Virus record (IMG/VR): IMGVR_UViG_3300042357_000031
Location: 1-41,383 of that record
Origin: a virus
Reading direction: 5' to 3' (one strand)
Length of the DNA stretch: 41,383 nt
Part shown: piece after piece, positions 9,931 to 36,136 of the stretch
Layout: each line of letters opens with the position of its first letter
Numbering within the stretch: the stretch's first letter is position 1
The notes under the pieces: generated by a model
What the model was told of the DNA's origin: nothing
Database searches by the model: none
The model's input: the letters and a program-made list of their open reading frames with translations, nothing else
Translations under genes and position numbers: made by a program

Positions 9931-9996
9931 ATGTGAAGTGTATAAGTATTAGTGTGATGCCTAACGGGTCACATGTAAACGTTGCTTTTTAGGACA

Positions 9997-10401
9997 ATGG
10001 TAACATTCAATTGGGAAACATATACTCCTTACTCTATTGGTTTCGATGAAACATTCAGAAGACTGGAAGCTATTGCAGGCACTGGATCTAGTTATCCTCC
10101 GTACAATGTGGTTGACGGAGACGATGGCAGAACCATACTTGAAGTCGCTTTGGCTGGATTTACAAGCGAAGATATTGAAGTCGCAACTCAACGACATGTT
10201 CTAACAGTATCTGCCAACAAATCAAAAGAAGAAAAAGAACGTAAGTATCAACACAAAGGTATCTCTCAAAAATCATTTAGTCGCAACTGGCAGATGGCAG
10301 AAGATGTTGAAGTAGAGAGTGTAGAATTTAAGGATGGTTTATTGACAGTTGTGTTGAAAAAAGAACTACCAGAAAAAGACAAGCGTAAAAAGTGGTTCTA
10401 A
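9997..10401 (+). CDS. hsp20: Hsp20/alpha-crystallin small heat shock protein
   Basis: 134 aa from the ATG at 9997; the frame is open to a TTG at 9982. An alpha-crystallin domain runs from about residue 40 to 125: YNVVDGDDGRTILEVALAGF, SEDIEVATQRHVLTVSA, then SFSRNWQMAEDVEVESVEFKD and GLLTVVLKKELPE, with a Lys-rich tail. Small heat shock proteins of this type are conserved in T4-like cyanophages and are thought to help phage protein folding. The gene has its own unit between two terminators. A TATAAGTA at 9941 resembles a T4 late -10 but is 49 bases before the start. Confidence 0.93.
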   Translation: MVTFNWETYTPYSIGFDETFRRLEAIAGTGSSYPPYNVVDGDDGRTILEVALAGFTSEDIEVATQRHVLTVSANKSKEEKERKYQHKGISQKSFSRNWQMAEDVEVESVEFKDGLLTVVLKKELPEKDKRKKWF

Positions 10402-10407
10402 ATATTC

Positions 10408-10431
10408 GGGCACTTGACGGTGCCCTTTTTT
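10408..10431 (+). terminator. intrinsic terminator after hsp20 with TTGACG loop
   Basis: Stem GGGCAC / GTGCCC with loop TTGACG (10414-10419), followed by six T. The loop doubles as a possible -35 box for the next gene. Confidence 0.88.
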
Positions 10432-10442
10432 AATGCTAAACT
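10414..10442 (+). promoter_or_regulatory. possible sigma-70 promoter (TTGACG-17-TAAACT)
   Basis: TTGACG at 10414-10419 is the terminator loop; exactly 17 bases later TAAACT (10437-10442) matches four of six -10 positions. Start would be near 10449, before the ATG at 10465. This is weaker than the similar elements at 31446 and 33909. Confidence 0.5.
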
Positions 10443-22072: not shown

Positions 22073-22233
22073 TTACCTGCTTTGTAACTAACTGGGGTGT
22101 AACCATAGTCCTAGGTCTTCTGCTAACTGCTTCTGAGTGGTTAGCAAAAACAAAAAGATTTGAGGAAAATGGTTTGCTAGATATAATCACAAAGTTCTTA
22201 CAAATTGTATTACGTAAGGGAGACCATAAATAG
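22069..22233 (+). CDS. small membrane protein, possible holin-like
   Basis: 54 aa. A hydrophobic segment, WGVTIVLGLLLTASEWLA, lies at about residues 9-26, preceded by Cys and Thr and followed by a basic stretch. One-pass small membrane proteins of this kind include holins and other phage membrane proteins. It is ATGA-coupled to the preceding ORF and its stop falls in the loop of the next terminator. The lysis enzymes are 7 kb away. Confidence 0.55.
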   Translation: MITCFVTNWGVTIVLGLLLTASEWLAKTKRFEENGLLDIITKFLQIVLRKGDHK

Positions 22234-22247
22234 GGTCTCCCTTTTTT
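22218..22247 (+). terminator. intrinsic terminator with ATAAATA in its loop
   Basis: Perfect 8-bp stem GGGAGACC / GGTCTCCC, 8-base loop ATAAATAG, then six T. The loop holds both the TAG stop of the upstream ORF and a late-promoter-like box. Confidence 0.9.
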
Positions 22248-29964: not shown

Positions 29965-30636
29965 ATGGCTAGAATAGATTTACACAACTTCTTCAAGTTC
30001 TATGACGAGAAGAACCCTAATCATGTAAAGGCAGTACAGTGGTTAGAAGATAACCTCCCAGTTAAGTATCTAGAAGATAACGTAGATTGGGCGGAGATCT
30101 ATAGAGGAAAAAAGGGTAATGCTGCATCAGCATCTACCTCTGCTGCTGCAGCTCCCGTAGTAGGTGGTGATGATGTCCCACAAATGGGCATCAAATTGGT
30201 GAAGGAATTTGAAGGATGCAGACTAAATGCATATCCAGATCCTCTCTCAGGTGGTCTGCCAATTACTATTGGTTGGGGTTCCACTAGAAATAAGAATGGT
30301 GGAGCATTTAAGATGGGTGATAGCATCACTCAGGCAGAAGCAGATGAGCTACTAATTGAAGAAGCAAAGCATCACTTCCTCCCAGCACTTCGTAAAATTC
30401 CTCACTGGAATGAGATGTCTGATGGTAAAAGAGGTGCTCTATTATCCTTCGCTTATAATTTGGGCGCTGGTTTCTATGGTGGTGATAATTTCAATACGAT
30501 TACTCGTGTTCTAAAAAATAAAGAATGGGATAAGGTGCCAGATGCGCTTTACCTCTACAGAAATCCTGGTTCAAATGTTGAGGCAGGACTAGCACGTAGA
30601 AGAAAAGCAGAAGGAGAAGCGTGGAAGAAGGGTTGA
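29965..30636 (+). CDS. GH24 lysozyme (endolysin)
   Basis: 223 aa, with AAAGGAG seven bases before the ATG. Residues 4-32 repeat the upstream gene's module (IDLHNFFKFYDEKNPNHV, then KAVQWLEDNLP). A linker rich in Ala, Ser and Pro (about 52-66) leads to a T4-lysozyme-type domain: KEFEG with catalytic Glu83, PDPLSG with Asp92 and ITIGWGS with Thr101, then a helical region ending GLARRRKAEGEAW. It cuts peptidoglycan between MurNAc and GlcNAc. No signal peptide, so it would need a holin or other export. Confidence 0.93.
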   Translation: MARIDLHNFFKFYDEKNPNHVKAVQWLEDNLPVKYLEDNVDWAEIYRGKKGNAASASTSAAAAPVVGGDDVPQMGIKLVKEFEGCRLNAYPDPLSGGLPITIGWGSTRNKNGGAFKMGDSITQAEADELLIEEAKHHFLPALRKIPHWNEMSDGKRGALLSFAYNLGAGFYGGDNFNTITRVLKNKEWDKVPDALYLYRNPGSNVEAGLARRRKAEGEAWKKG

Positions 30637-30661
30637 CACTCACATAAATACGTGATATTAT
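30633..30661 (+). promoter_or_regulatory. sigma-70 promoter (TTGACA-17-TATTAT)
   Basis: Perfect TTGACA at 30633, overlapping the lysozyme stop, and TATTAT at 30656 with 17 bases between. An ATAAATA box lies in the spacer at 30644. It would produce a leader of about 120 bases before the ATG at 30792. Confidence 0.7.
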
Positions 30662-30791: not shown

Positions 30792-31421
30792 ATGCAACAA
30801 TTCTTTACTGTAGCCCTGCCCCTTCTGGCATCGGTTACAACCAATGTGGCAACACTGCCGATCTTTCCTCCTCTGACGGCGCCTCCAACGCCATTCTCTA
30901 TTATCAAGGAGTTTGAAACGACAGCGACCCGAGAGGTTGCTCCCGAAAAACCAAAAGAAAAAAGGCTAATTTGTAAAGGGTGTTCAGAACATGAGAACCT
31001 TGCTTTGGATTTTTTCCAAAACCAAGGAATTAAAGACAGAAACGCCCTCGCTACTATTCTGGGCAATATTAAGCAGGAATCCATGTTCGTGCCTAATATT
31101 TGTGAAGGTGGTAGCAGGACCAGTTATCATAACTGCGGACGTGGTTATGGTCTGATCCAATGGACATCTGCCGATCGTTATTATGGATTGGGTGATTTCG
31201 CTAAGAAGTTTGGTGGTTCTCCATCAACACTTCCAACGCAACTTCGTTATCTTACGAATGAAGTTCAATGGAAACGAATTGAAGACAGGATGAAAACTCC
31301 TGGTAAATCTATCAATCGTTACATGGACTATGCGTATAGTTGGATTGGTTGGGGCATTCATGGTGCCCGCACATCATATGCTCATGAATATGCTAACCGA
31401 CTGATCACGGTAGAAGTTTGA
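30792..31421 (+). CDS. Phage_lysozyme2-like muralytic protein with signal peptide-like N-terminus
   Basis: 209 aa. A hydrophobic N-terminus of about 25 residues could be a signal sequence or anchor, and a Pro/Glu/Lys linker follows. From residue 69 there is a domain like tail-associated Phage_lysozyme2: ALDFFQNQGI, NALATILGNIKQESMFVP with candidate catalytic Glu96, GRGYGLIQWTSADRY, and a C-terminal HGARTSYAHEYANRL. It is probably an envelope-facing muramidase or peptidase. Lacking other tail genes nearby, I prefer a secreted or periplasmic role to a tail lysin, but this is unsure. Confidence 0.78.
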   Translation: MQQFFTVALPLLASVTTNVATLPIFPPLTAPPTPFSIIKEFETTATREVAPEKPKEKRLICKGCSEHENLALDFFQNQGIKDRNALATILGNIKQESMFVPNICEGGSRTSYHNCGRGYGLIQWTSADRYYGLGDFAKKFGGSPSTLPTQLRYLTNEVQWKRIEDRMKTPGKSINRYMDYAYSWIGWGIHGARTSYAHEYANRLITVEV

Positions 31422-31437
31422 TACAATAAAATAGGCA

Positions 31438-31462
31438 GAGGGGGCTTGACAAATGCTCCCTC
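31438..31462 (+). terminator. GC-rich hairpin with TTGACAAAT loop, promoter-overlapping
   Basis: GAGGGGGC / GCTCCCTC stem (one G-T pair) around loop TTGACAAAT. The T run after it is poor, so termination may be weak; the loop is the -35 box of the tRNA promoter. Confidence 0.6.
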
Positions 31463-31474
31463 TCCACCTATAAT
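31446..31474 (+). promoter_or_regulatory. consensus sigma-70 promoter for the tRNA cluster
   Basis: Perfect TTGACA (31446-31451), 17 bases, perfect TATAAT (31469-31474). Transcription would begin around 31481, immediately before the tRNA-Arg at 31483. The -35 lies in a hairpin loop. Confidence 0.9.
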
Positions 31475-31482
31475 ACTCTCAT

Positions 31483-31559
31483 GTCTTGGTAGCTCAGATG
31501 GATAGAGCCACTCACTTCTAATGAGTTGGTCGGGGGTTCGAGTCCCTCCCAAGACGCCA
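31483..31559 (+). tRNA. tRNA-Arg (TCT)
   Basis: A full cloverleaf with acceptor GTCTTGG / CCAAGAC, anticodon stem ACTCA / TGAGT and loop CTTCTAA giving anticodon TCT. The gene encodes its 3' CCA (31557-31559), unlike the other tRNAs here. Confidence 0.95.
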
Positions 31560-31642
31560 GCTCCAGTGGTGGAACGGTAGACACAGCGGACTTAGAATCC
31601 GCCGCCTTAAAAAGCGTGGAAGTTCAAATCTTCTCTGGAGCA
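31560..31642 (+). tRNA. tRNA-Leu (TAG)
   Basis: Acceptor GCTCCAG / CTGGAGC; anticodon stem GCGGA / TCCGC with loop CTTAGAA, so anticodon TAG. A long variable arm (CGCCTTAAAAAGCG region) is as expected for tRNA-Leu. It abuts tRNA-Arg directly, so the two are processed from one transcript. Confidence 0.95.
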
Positions 31643-31645
31643 TTC

Positions 31646-31717
31646 GGGCGATTAACTCAGCGGTAGAGTGGCCTCCTTACAAGTGGTAAGTCACTGGTTC
31701 GAATCCAGTATCGCCCA
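31646..31717 (+). tRNA. tRNA-Val (TAC)
   Basis: Acceptor GGGCGAT / ATCGCCC; loop CTTACAA gives anticodon TAC. The anticodon stem GCCTC / GTGGT has a T-T mismatch at pair 30-40 and a G-T pair at 27-43. T arm ACTGG / CCAGT is normal. No encoded CCA. Confidence 0.93.
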
Positions 31718-32278: not shown

Positions 32279-32307
32279 TTGACAAAATCTAAAGAGAGTG
32301 TTAAGAT
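32279..32307 (+). promoter_or_regulatory. sigma-70 promoter for the porin gene (TTGACA-17-TAAGAT)
   Basis: TTGACA at 32279 and TAAGAT at 32302, 17 bases apart, just after tRNA-Ser. The start would be near 32314, with ATGs at 32325 and 32346. This is a host-like promoter. Confidence 0.75.
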
Positions 32308-32324
32308 ACTTGAGCCTTAAAGGC

Positions 32325-33854
32325 ATGTCGTTTAATAAAATTTTTATGAAACTCAATCAACTGATGCTTGCACCCGTTGCTCTTGGTATGATTGCTCCTG
32401 TTGCTGCGAATGCCGCAGATCTCAATATTGCAGCAGTCAATCAATACTCGTCTGAGCAGGTTACAAGCGTCTCTCAACTGTCTGATGTTCAACCTTCGGA
32501 TTGGGCATATCAGGCACTTACCAATCTTGTAGATCGTTACGGTTGCGTAGCTGGTTATCCTAACGGCACTTATGGTGGTGGTAAGGCAATGACCCGTTAT
32601 GAGGCAGCAGCACTTCTGAATGCTTGCCTTGATCGTGTGACTGAAGTGACTGACGAACTCCAACGTCTTTCTGTTGAGTTCCGTGAAGAACTTGCAGTAA
32701 TTCGTGGTCGTGTTGATAAACTGGAAGCAAAGGTTGGTCAACTGGAAGCAACCCAGTTCTCTACTACCACCAAACTCAAAGGTGAAGCATACTTCACTCT
32801 GAATGGTGTTGATGATGCTTACACCAAAACTGGTGCTGGAACTGCTGCTTCCAACGTTGGTCACACTGCATTCAACTACGATCTTCGTTTGAACCTTGAT
32901 ACATCTTTCACTGGTAAAGATCTGTTCCGCACTCGTCTTCGTGCTGGTAACTTCAGTTCTCAACCTTTTGGTTCTTCGTCTTCGCTGTTCAAGCTTGACA
33001 AAGCAACCAATACTTCTGATGCTGTGAAGCTTGACCGTCTGTATTATCAGTTCCCTGCACTTGCTAAGGGCATTACCCTGACCGCTGGTGCTATTGTTGA
33101 GAACCATGATATGTTCTGGAAGCCTAGTGCATATGGTCCTCAGATCCTTGACTTCTTCACTGGAACTGCTGGTGCCCCTGGCGTGTTCAACAAAGCAGAA
33201 GGTGCTGGTTTTGGTGTTCAGTATGTCCAACCTGGCAAGAAAGGTGGCGTCATCGCTGGCGTAAACTATGTTGCTCAAAGTGGTAGCGATAGCACCAAAG
33301 GTGTTTTCGATGAGAACGGAGGTATCAACCTCCAAGCTCAACTTGGTTATCGTGCTCCTCAGTATGGTGCTGCATTCAGCTATCGTTATGGCACTGAAGG
33401 AACCCGTATGCGTAACTTCAATGCTGTGAACGGTGGTTCTGCTGCTCTTGCTCTGGGTCAAACCTCTAACAACTACGCTCTGAATGCCTATTGGCAACCC
33501 AAGACTTCTGGTATCATTCCTTCTGTGAGTGGTGCTTATGGTTGGAGTGAAGTTAGCAAGAATGCTGCTGGACAAGCAACTCCTACTGGTGCTACCAATG
33601 CTCAGACTTGGTTTGCTGGTCTTCAGTGGAGCGATGTGTTTGCCAAGGGTAATGCTGCTGGCGTTGCTGTTGGACAACCTGGCAACTCTACTGCTATCTC
33701 TGCTGATGCTACGATGTGGGAAGTCTTCTATAAGTATCGTGTAAGCGATAACATTAGCGTCACTCCTGCTGTTTTCTATGTCAGCAACAACCAAGCGTTC
33801 CAAGGTAACTCTTCTAACGTGGGTGGAGTGATCCAAACCAAGTTCACTTTCTGA
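32325..33854 (+). CDS. outer-membrane porin with SLH and OprB-like domains (host-like)
   Basis: 509 aa from ATG 32325; ATG 32346 (MKLNQLML) is equally possible and starts at a typical signal peptide. A signal peptide ends around ANAA (residue 30). An SLH domain at about 51-105 holds PSDWAYQALTNLVDRYGC and MTRYEAAALLNACLDRV. A short coiled coil follows at 106-142, then a beta-barrel region with alternating hydrophobic strands ending in Phe (TKFTF), as outer-membrane proteins do. The whole layout is that of SomA/SomB-type porins of cyanobacteria. A phage copy may change uptake, or display or mask receptors. Confidence 0.93.
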   Translation: MSFNKIFMKLNQLMLAPVALGMIAPVAANAADLNIAAVNQYSSEQVTSVSQLSDVQPSDWAYQALTNLVDRYGCVAGYPNGTYGGGKAMTRYEAAALLNACLDRVTEVTDELQRLSVEFREELAVIRGRVDKLEAKVGQLEATQFSTTTKLKGEAYFTLNGVDDAYTKTGAGTAASNVGHTAFNYDLRLNLDTSFTGKDLFRTRLRAGNFSSQPFGSSSSLFKLDKATNTSDAVKLDRLYYQFPALAKGITLTAGAIVENHDMFWKPSAYGPQILDFFTGTAGAPGVFNKAEGAGFGVQYVQPGKKGGVIAGVNYVAQSGSDSTKGVFDENGGINLQAQLGYRAPQYGAAFSYRYGTEGTRMRNFNAVNGGSAALALGQTSNNYALNAYWQPKTSGIIPSVSGAYGWSEVSKNAAGQATPTGATNAQTWFAGLQWSDVFAKGNAAGVAVGQPGNSTAISADATMWEVFYKYRVSDNISVTPAVFYVSNNQAFQGNSSNVGGVIQTKFTF

Positions 33855-33902
33855 TAATTAAACCTTATCATTATTCTTGATACAATCAAGATATAGCATA
33901 TA

Positions 33903-33926
33903 GAGGGGTTGACATACCCCTCTTTT
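33903..33926 (+). terminator. terminator hairpin with TTGACATA loop
   Basis: Perfect 6-bp stem GAGGGG / CCCCTC with loop TTGACATA, followed by TTTT then CTCT. It would end the porin transcript while its loop is the -35 of the next promoter. Confidence 0.75.
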
Positions 33927-33937
33927 CTCTATATAAT
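33909..33937 (+). promoter_or_regulatory. consensus sigma-70 promoter (TTGACA-17-TATAAT)
   Basis: Perfect TTGACA at 33909, 17 bases, perfect TATAAT at 33932. It drives the two membrane proteins at 33960 and 34133 with a leader of about 16 bases. Confidence 0.92.
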
Positions 33938-33959: not shown

Positions 33960-34127
33960 ATGACAGAACAAACAATTTCAAAAAAATCAAAGACTTCAAA
34001 ACGTCTTCTGGTTGCCGCTGCTGCTAGTCTTGCTATTGGTGGCGGACTTGTAAATGCTGCTTTGACTAATGAAGGCGAAGGTCTTCTTGGTGAAGGTGTG
34101 AAGATGATGCTCCCACAAGCGAGGTAA
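33960..34127 (+). CDS. small membrane protein
   Basis: 55 aa. A basic start (SKKSKTSKR) precedes a hydrophobic segment, LLVAAAASLAIGGGLVNAAL, at about 17-36, then an acidic Gly-rich tail. It is the first gene behind a perfect sigma-70 promoter, so it should be made early and strongly. It may sit in the inner membrane, or the segment may be a signal peptide. No family recognised. Confidence 0.65.
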   Translation: MTEQTISKKSKTSKRLLVAAAASLAIGGGLVNAALTNEGEGLLGEGVKMMLPQAR

Positions 34128-35907: not shown

Positions 35908-36136
35908 TTTATAAGTCCTGGAATGACTTAAAACTTATCCTGGTGGAGTCAAATTTGACCCTATTATGCCCGTGATGGAGACACGTTAACAACCCTGGTC
36001 GGGAACCCCCTCGATGAGTTTCCAGTTTCTCTCAAAAACTGGTGGTGCGGATGGGGTTACTCCCGCCTGGTTTCTTGTTTCCAGTCAAAGAACAAGTGGC
36101 GAGCCTGCTCAACGGGGATTGACCATCCCCATCCCT
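35908..36136 (+). other. 229-base non-coding-looking region with several hairpins
   Basis: Between the last accessory gene and tRNA-Gly. It contains perfect stems AAGTC / GACTT (around 35923), a 12-base palindrome GTCAAATTTGAC (35948-35959), CGTG / CACG, CCAGTTT / AAACTGG near 36021-36041, CTTGTT / AACAAG and GGGGAT / ATCCCC (36114-36130). It is more GC-rich than the nearby genes. A 47-codon ORF (36014-36157) crosses it and runs into the tRNA. It may be a structured RNA; I know no family that matches. Confidence 0.4.

Follow-up and report, generated by a model that had tools for sequence, protein, structure and literature searches.

The promoters of the N4 virion RNA polymerase are small DNA hairpins with a 3-nt loop, which contain no −35 or −10 hexamers and are used by a phage polymerase. 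Another combination of promoter and hairpin, the promoter-early stem-loop (PeSL), was reportedly defined by Arbiol et al. in 2010 and Comeau et al. in 2014. PeSLs, which occur in T4-type phages, combine a stem-loop with an early promoter and are discussed for S-PM2 in PMC4503421. In RB49 and phi1, we found eight examples with the hairpin located between the −35 and −10 boxes (TTGACA-GGGGATCGGTGATCCCC-TATACT).

The window analyzed here is a 41,383-nt (41-kb) IMG/VR virus contig of the T4-like cyanophage type, and the named phages closest to it, S-SRM01 and DSL-LC02/03, are freshwater Synechococcus phages. The signal that would start one gene block in this virus appears to be located inside the loop of the hairpin that would end the preceding block. 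Like the PeSLs as PMC4503421 characterizes them, the window elements are intergenic, come from a T4-like phage, and combine a stem-loop with an early-type promoter. Unlike in RB49 and phi1, the −35 box of the window elements is in the hairpin loop rather than ahead of the stem. The elements also resemble an intrinsic (Rho-independent) terminator combined with a sigma-70 promoter, having a GC-rich stem, a U-tract in many copies, and a start for the next unit. However, an ordinary terminator precedes its neighboring promoter, whereas bases are shared here, with the terminator loop serving as the −35 box and the 3' arm and U-tract as the promoter spacer. As with the N4 promoters, a hairpin coincides with a phage promoter, but the loops are 9 and 6 nt in length, the −35/17/−10 arrangement is canonical and of host type, and the evidence from the stems points to RNA.

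A literature search returned no description of a −35 box in a terminator loop, which is weak evidence, as most subscription papers were outside its coverage. The first-pass annotation of this DNA knew of no earlier account of elements of this class, which was too strong a statement given the PeSLs of T4-type phages treated in PMC4503421. Because these are known and cyanophages have other stem layouts as well, we regard the window elements as a new layout of the composite promoter/stem-loop kind, at least relative to PeSLs as that source presents them, and not as an unprecedented class.

Hairpin elements of the window

The three elements, the tRNA unit, and the lysozyme, porin, and small-ORF genes are on the + strand. 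The element preceding the tRNA cluster consists of a hairpin, AGAGGGGGC-TTGACAAAT-GCTCCCTCT (31437–31463), whose arms (31437–31445 and 31455–31463) enclose the loop TTGACAAAT (31446–31454). The −35 box TTGACA (31446–31451) is within this loop and is followed, with a spacer of 17 nt, by the −10 box TATAAT (31469–31474), constituting a 12/12 match to the sigma-70 consensus. The sequence and coordinates thus agree with the initial description of TTGACA as a hairpin loop with TATAAT at a spacing of 17; the hairpin itself is present as described, but its stem is actually 9 bp in length and starts at 31437. A co-directional tail lysozyme gene (Phage_lysozyme2, phrog_512; 30792–31421) lies upstream, and tRNA-Arg starts at 31483, 9 nt past the −10 box. 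This tRNA, along with tRNA-Leu and tRNA-Val, forms the unit that the promoter should drive (31483–31717). The RNA of this region folds with −21.2 kcal/mol (z −4.0), and the stem is GC-rich, as are those of the other window elements and of intrinsic terminators. Directly 3' of the stem there is no U-tract, the sequence being CCACC instead. For this reason the 31437 hairpin fails a terminator scan that the hairpins at 33902 and 10408 pass, and the tRNA version is at most a putative terminator.

The second element follows an OprB/SLH porin gene (32298–33854), the true start of which may be downstream of the first start codon. Its hairpin, AGAGGGGT-tgacat-ACCCCTCT (33902–33923), has arms at 33902–33909 and 33916–33923, contains the −35 box TTGACA (33909–33914), and is followed by a T-rich tract beginning TTTCTC. 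The −10 box TATAAT (33932–33937) is again 17 nt away, and the RNA fold has a z of −3.9. The same design had been noted at 33903, and the analysis bears this out, as a perfect 12/12 promoter is combined with a hairpin that is positive in the terminator scan, U-tract included. Downstream is a small ORF of 55 amino acids (33960–34127), for which a family search gave no match. The porin itself is of a cyanobacterial type with SLH and OprB domains, and S-SRM01 encodes one too.

The third element, GGGCAC-TTGACG-GTGCCC-TTTTTT and its downstream −10 box (10408–10442), is located after an hsp20 gene (9982–10401) and had been described as weaker, an assessment that fits its promoter. The terminator (10408–10425; GGGCACTTGACGGTGCCC followed by TTTTTT) is strong and has a U-tract, and the RNA fold has a z of −3.2. 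The promoter matches at only 9/12 positions (TTGACG at 10414–10419, a spacer of 17, and TAAACT at 10437–10442, with a TG upstream).

No known RNA family was found over the element in an Rfam search, which elsewhere in the window identified only tRNAs and the wcaG RNA. The latter (36014–36110; RF01761, 100.9 bits) is a riboswitch candidate known from cyanophages and is upstream of tRNA-Gly.

Orthologous sites and sequence evidence pointing to an RNA hairpin

A hairpin directly after the tail-lysozyme gene is kept in 114 of 117 non-redundant relatives. Fifteen of these sites carry a promoter with its −35 box in the hairpin, and 14 of the 15 precede a tRNA gene, as compared to 15 of the 102 sites without such a promoter (Fisher 2e-9). 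The hairpin is therefore the constant feature at this site, with the promoter occurring mostly when a tRNA unit follows. Likewise, a hairpin is kept after the porin gene in 57 of 58 cases, with a promoter inside it in 21; at least five T's occur in the next 8 nt for 16 of these 21 hairpins. U-tracts are absent from the tRNA-linked orthologues of the 31437 element.

Among 11 copies of the tRNA type, the stem covaries strongly, with 8 of 9 pairs changed on both sides and 94.9% pairing, and none of 500 shuffles equaled this pairing and covariation. The TTGAC of the −35 box is invariant in these 11 copies, while the stem arms vary. Across 161 hairpins, a set that includes pattern-scan loci selected for having a hairpin, internal G·U/U·G pairs outnumber A·C/C·A pairs by 43 to 14. 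Such a bias would be expected if the hairpin is of importance in RNA of the same sense as the promoter. As the promoter's own transcript would start past the hairpin, such RNA can come only from upstream transcripts. In agreement with this, 35 of the 39 hairpin cases have a co-directional gene ending no more than 130 nt upstream, versus 103 of 177 hairpin-less promoters. T residues after the stem average 3.9 of 8, versus 2.9 of 8 at the same positions of hairpin-less promoters, in a set that again includes hairpin-selected pattern-scan loci.

Where the early promoter is absent, the post-lysozyme hairpin often adjoins a late-promoter-like AATAAATA, with GTGCTGCAGAC as a recurrent loop (L021, L028, L037, and other relatives). 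The hairpin after AATAAATA is situated just past the lysozyme stop codon, so that a late transcript would have the hairpin at its very start, closely followed by the next ATG.

Excess over chance

Two promoters with the −35 box in a hairpin and a −10 box matching at 5/6 or more positions are present in the window, while 400 Markov simulations of it averaged 0.015 and never exceeded 1. In freshwater cyanophage contigs, a strong hairpin is centered on the −35 box in 37 of 241 non-redundant promoters, as compared to 2.0±1.4 in a control that kept the −35 and −10 hexamers fixed, shuffled the flanks and spacer, and counted at a high hairpin threshold. As these contigs were fetched around two genes, the resulting share of 15% does not represent a genome-wide rate. 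Hairpin loop centers for the 241 promoters peak within ~2 nt of the TTGACA midpoint, with a low background at other offsets. In the same contigs, TTGACA is in or adjoining the loop of 12 of 208 non-redundant U-tract hairpins, where 0.36 is expected, and its reverse complement is in or adjoining the loop of none of them.

We also scanned 2.9 million viral contigs for the pattern GGGG-TTGACA-N0-5-CCCC-N0-14-TATWAT, which was found in at least 120 stretches, as compared to 8 for a scrambled hexamer. The first-pass annotation had proposed comparing the motif with shuffled sequence, and in both the shuffle and the scrambled-hexamer comparison the motif is commoner than chance. The pattern leaves the spacing free, and the spacing is nonetheless 17 in 64 of 95 non-redundant copies among the matches listed. 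For 120 stretches among the matches listed, the best protein matches are to cyanophages in 82 cases, to other T4-like phages in 10, and to neither in 27, with 1 being weak. One viral contig in the neither category (L307) has four GGGG-TTGACA-CCCC-TATAAT elements within ~10 kb, as does a Bacteroidales contig (L443), and the two have a phrog_5889 gene in common. Since both carry four copies, along with phrog_5889, the design occurs outside T4-like phages. The pattern was present in at least 117 stretches of bacterial genomes, a scan that had no control and from which we make no claim for bacteria. Bacterial stems extend beyond the four required G:C pairs by a mean of 1.3 (versus 1.95), and 60 of 111 have no extension.

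Proposed mechanism and alternative explanations

We consider it probable, judging from the sequences, that these are composite gene-boundary elements, each a sigma-70-type promoter overprinted on a terminator-like RNA hairpin. In such an element, the −35 box would form either the loop or the uppermost part of the stem. The 17-nt spacer before the −10 box would be taken up by the 3' arm, together with the U-tract if present. The hairpin would form in the nascent RNA of polymerases coming from the co-directional gene upstream. At copies with a U-tract (33902 and 10408), the hairpin should terminate transcription; at the 31437 copy, which has no U-tract, it may only weaken read-through, or may protect, process, or mark the 3' end of the upstream mRNA. 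A host-type sigma-70 polymerase would then restart just downstream, at the tRNA 5' end for 31437 and before the small gene for 33902. Both functions would reside on the same DNA, with no physical coupling needing to be assumed. Promoter activity, termination, and timing are predictions from these signals, and we read the overprinting as saving space. The initial proposal that transcription is stopped and restarted within 40 bases is consistent with several properties of the elements, namely the upstream gene ends, the U-tracts of many copies, the sense-strand G·U bias, and the 17-nt spacing. Its stop half is weakest at 31437, the copy without a U-tract.

The hairpin might instead be a structure for protection or processing of the 3' end of the upstream gene's mRNA, on which a promoter was overlaid once a tRNA or some other early unit had come to lie downstream. 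The retention of the post-lysozyme hairpin with or without a promoter is in keeping with this explanation, as is the lack of a U-tract in the tRNA-linked copies, and the sense-strand G·U tolerance fits any RNA role. However, good U-tracts follow many copies, including the one at 33902 and most of the post-porin ones, and we think this explanation unlikely, if still deserving of weight. The arms are symmetric about the −35 box, as would be expected of a DNA operator at which a repressor or activator dimer on the two arms controls the −35 box. We rejected such an operator as very improbable, since the arm sequences are not conserved and change with compensation, and G·U is preferred over A·C; U-tracts also follow many copies.

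A PeSL-type mobile cassette, kept mainly as a site of homologous recombination at which gene modules are swapped, is improbable as well. PeSLs have been discussed as mediators of gene shuffling in T4-like phages (PMC4503421), and the cargo behind the lysozyme and porin genes differs among relatives. Yet near-identical elements with a non-matching flank make up 90 of 245 pairs of hairpin promoters and a similar 198 of 613 pairs of plain promoters, such that one-sided flank matches show no excess indicative of special mobility, and the geometry is unlike that of RB49 and phi1. Least credible of all is a chance overlap of terminator and promoter crowded together in short intergenic DNA. In phages, little DNA separates the genes, and promoters often come after gene ends, but the hairpins are concentrated within ~2 nt of the −35 box instead of being spread broadly upstream, and the arrangement is conserved across orthologues. 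Together with the shuffle, scrambled-hexamer, and simulation controls, the positional peak led us to reject chance.

Returning to the overprinted promoter and hairpin, a broader claim can be put forward only tentatively, and we hold it to be doubtful. It holds that a −35 box in a terminator loop is a widespread class that has arisen repeatedly (in T4-like cyanophages, unrelated phage contigs, and perhaps prophages), and that the two events sharing its 40 bp, termination and re-initiation, are coupled in function, such as by a handover of polymerase at late/early gene boundaries. The elements indicate that a terminator and a promoter are able to share nearly all of their bases, with the −35 box as the loop. 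The compact signature (stem-TTGACA-stem, 17 nt, TATAAT) can be searched for as a mark of transcription-unit boundaries in abundant cyanophages, most of whose genes are unannotated. If active, the element would be a natural 40-bp insulator-plus-promoter for cyanobacterial genetics and would make a mutual influence of termination and re-initiation testable.

Cultured phages and other layouts

The element occurs in cultured phages. In S-SRM01 it is located at 186421, after the porin gene, and in P-SSM2 at 142801, after regA, where the annotated regA stop codon TGA is inside TTGACA. S-PM2 carries the element, and ACG-2014f has a TTGGCA-17-TATAAT element at about 27257, flanked by a tail-fibre-like gene and a small gene. 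S-H38 has TTGACA in a hairpin loop, but its −10 box is poor. A BLAST match in S-SM2 (121072) was rejected, being a plain terminator with the loop TTAACC. Folding around the −35 box reached −13 kcal/mol or lower for 15 of the 131 promoters in six genomes of cultured cyanophages, as compared to 1.6 in shuffles, and a simple contiguous-stem measure gives 0–2 cases per cultured marine genome.

Cyanophages also show layouts in which TTGACA is part of the stem. In the hsp20-to-polymerase region of S-SRM01 and S-SM2, which is the location of the weak 10408 copy in the window, a compound terminator hairpin contains TTGAC in its 3' half, and the −10 box is just past the U-tract. A simple reading would be that a −10 box placed right after a terminator forces the −35 box into the hairpin, and that selection found several ways of accommodating it.

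The palindrome TTGACATAATNNTCATTATGTC, followed by TATACT, fills the promoter spacer in S-SRM01 (184631) and in five contigs (L133:8208, L157:1275, L160:8350, L282:472, and L583). As its sequence is kept, and not just its pairing, an operator or a spacer hairpin of the PeSL type seems the better comparison. At 22216–22243 of the window, a strong terminator hairpin, AAGGGAGACC-ATAAATAG-GGTCTCCCTT-TTTT, has the T4-type late-promoter core ATAAATA in its loop. Hairpins centered on ATAAATA are mildly over-represented in the relatives (the 5-nt bin at the motif has 12, versus ~5 in most bins), and those ~20 nt upstream of it are strongly over-represented (38). Upstream of the lysozyme gene, TTGACACTCACATAAATACGTGATATTAT (30633–30661) is a promoter of the early type whose spacer contains a late-promoter core (CATAAATA).
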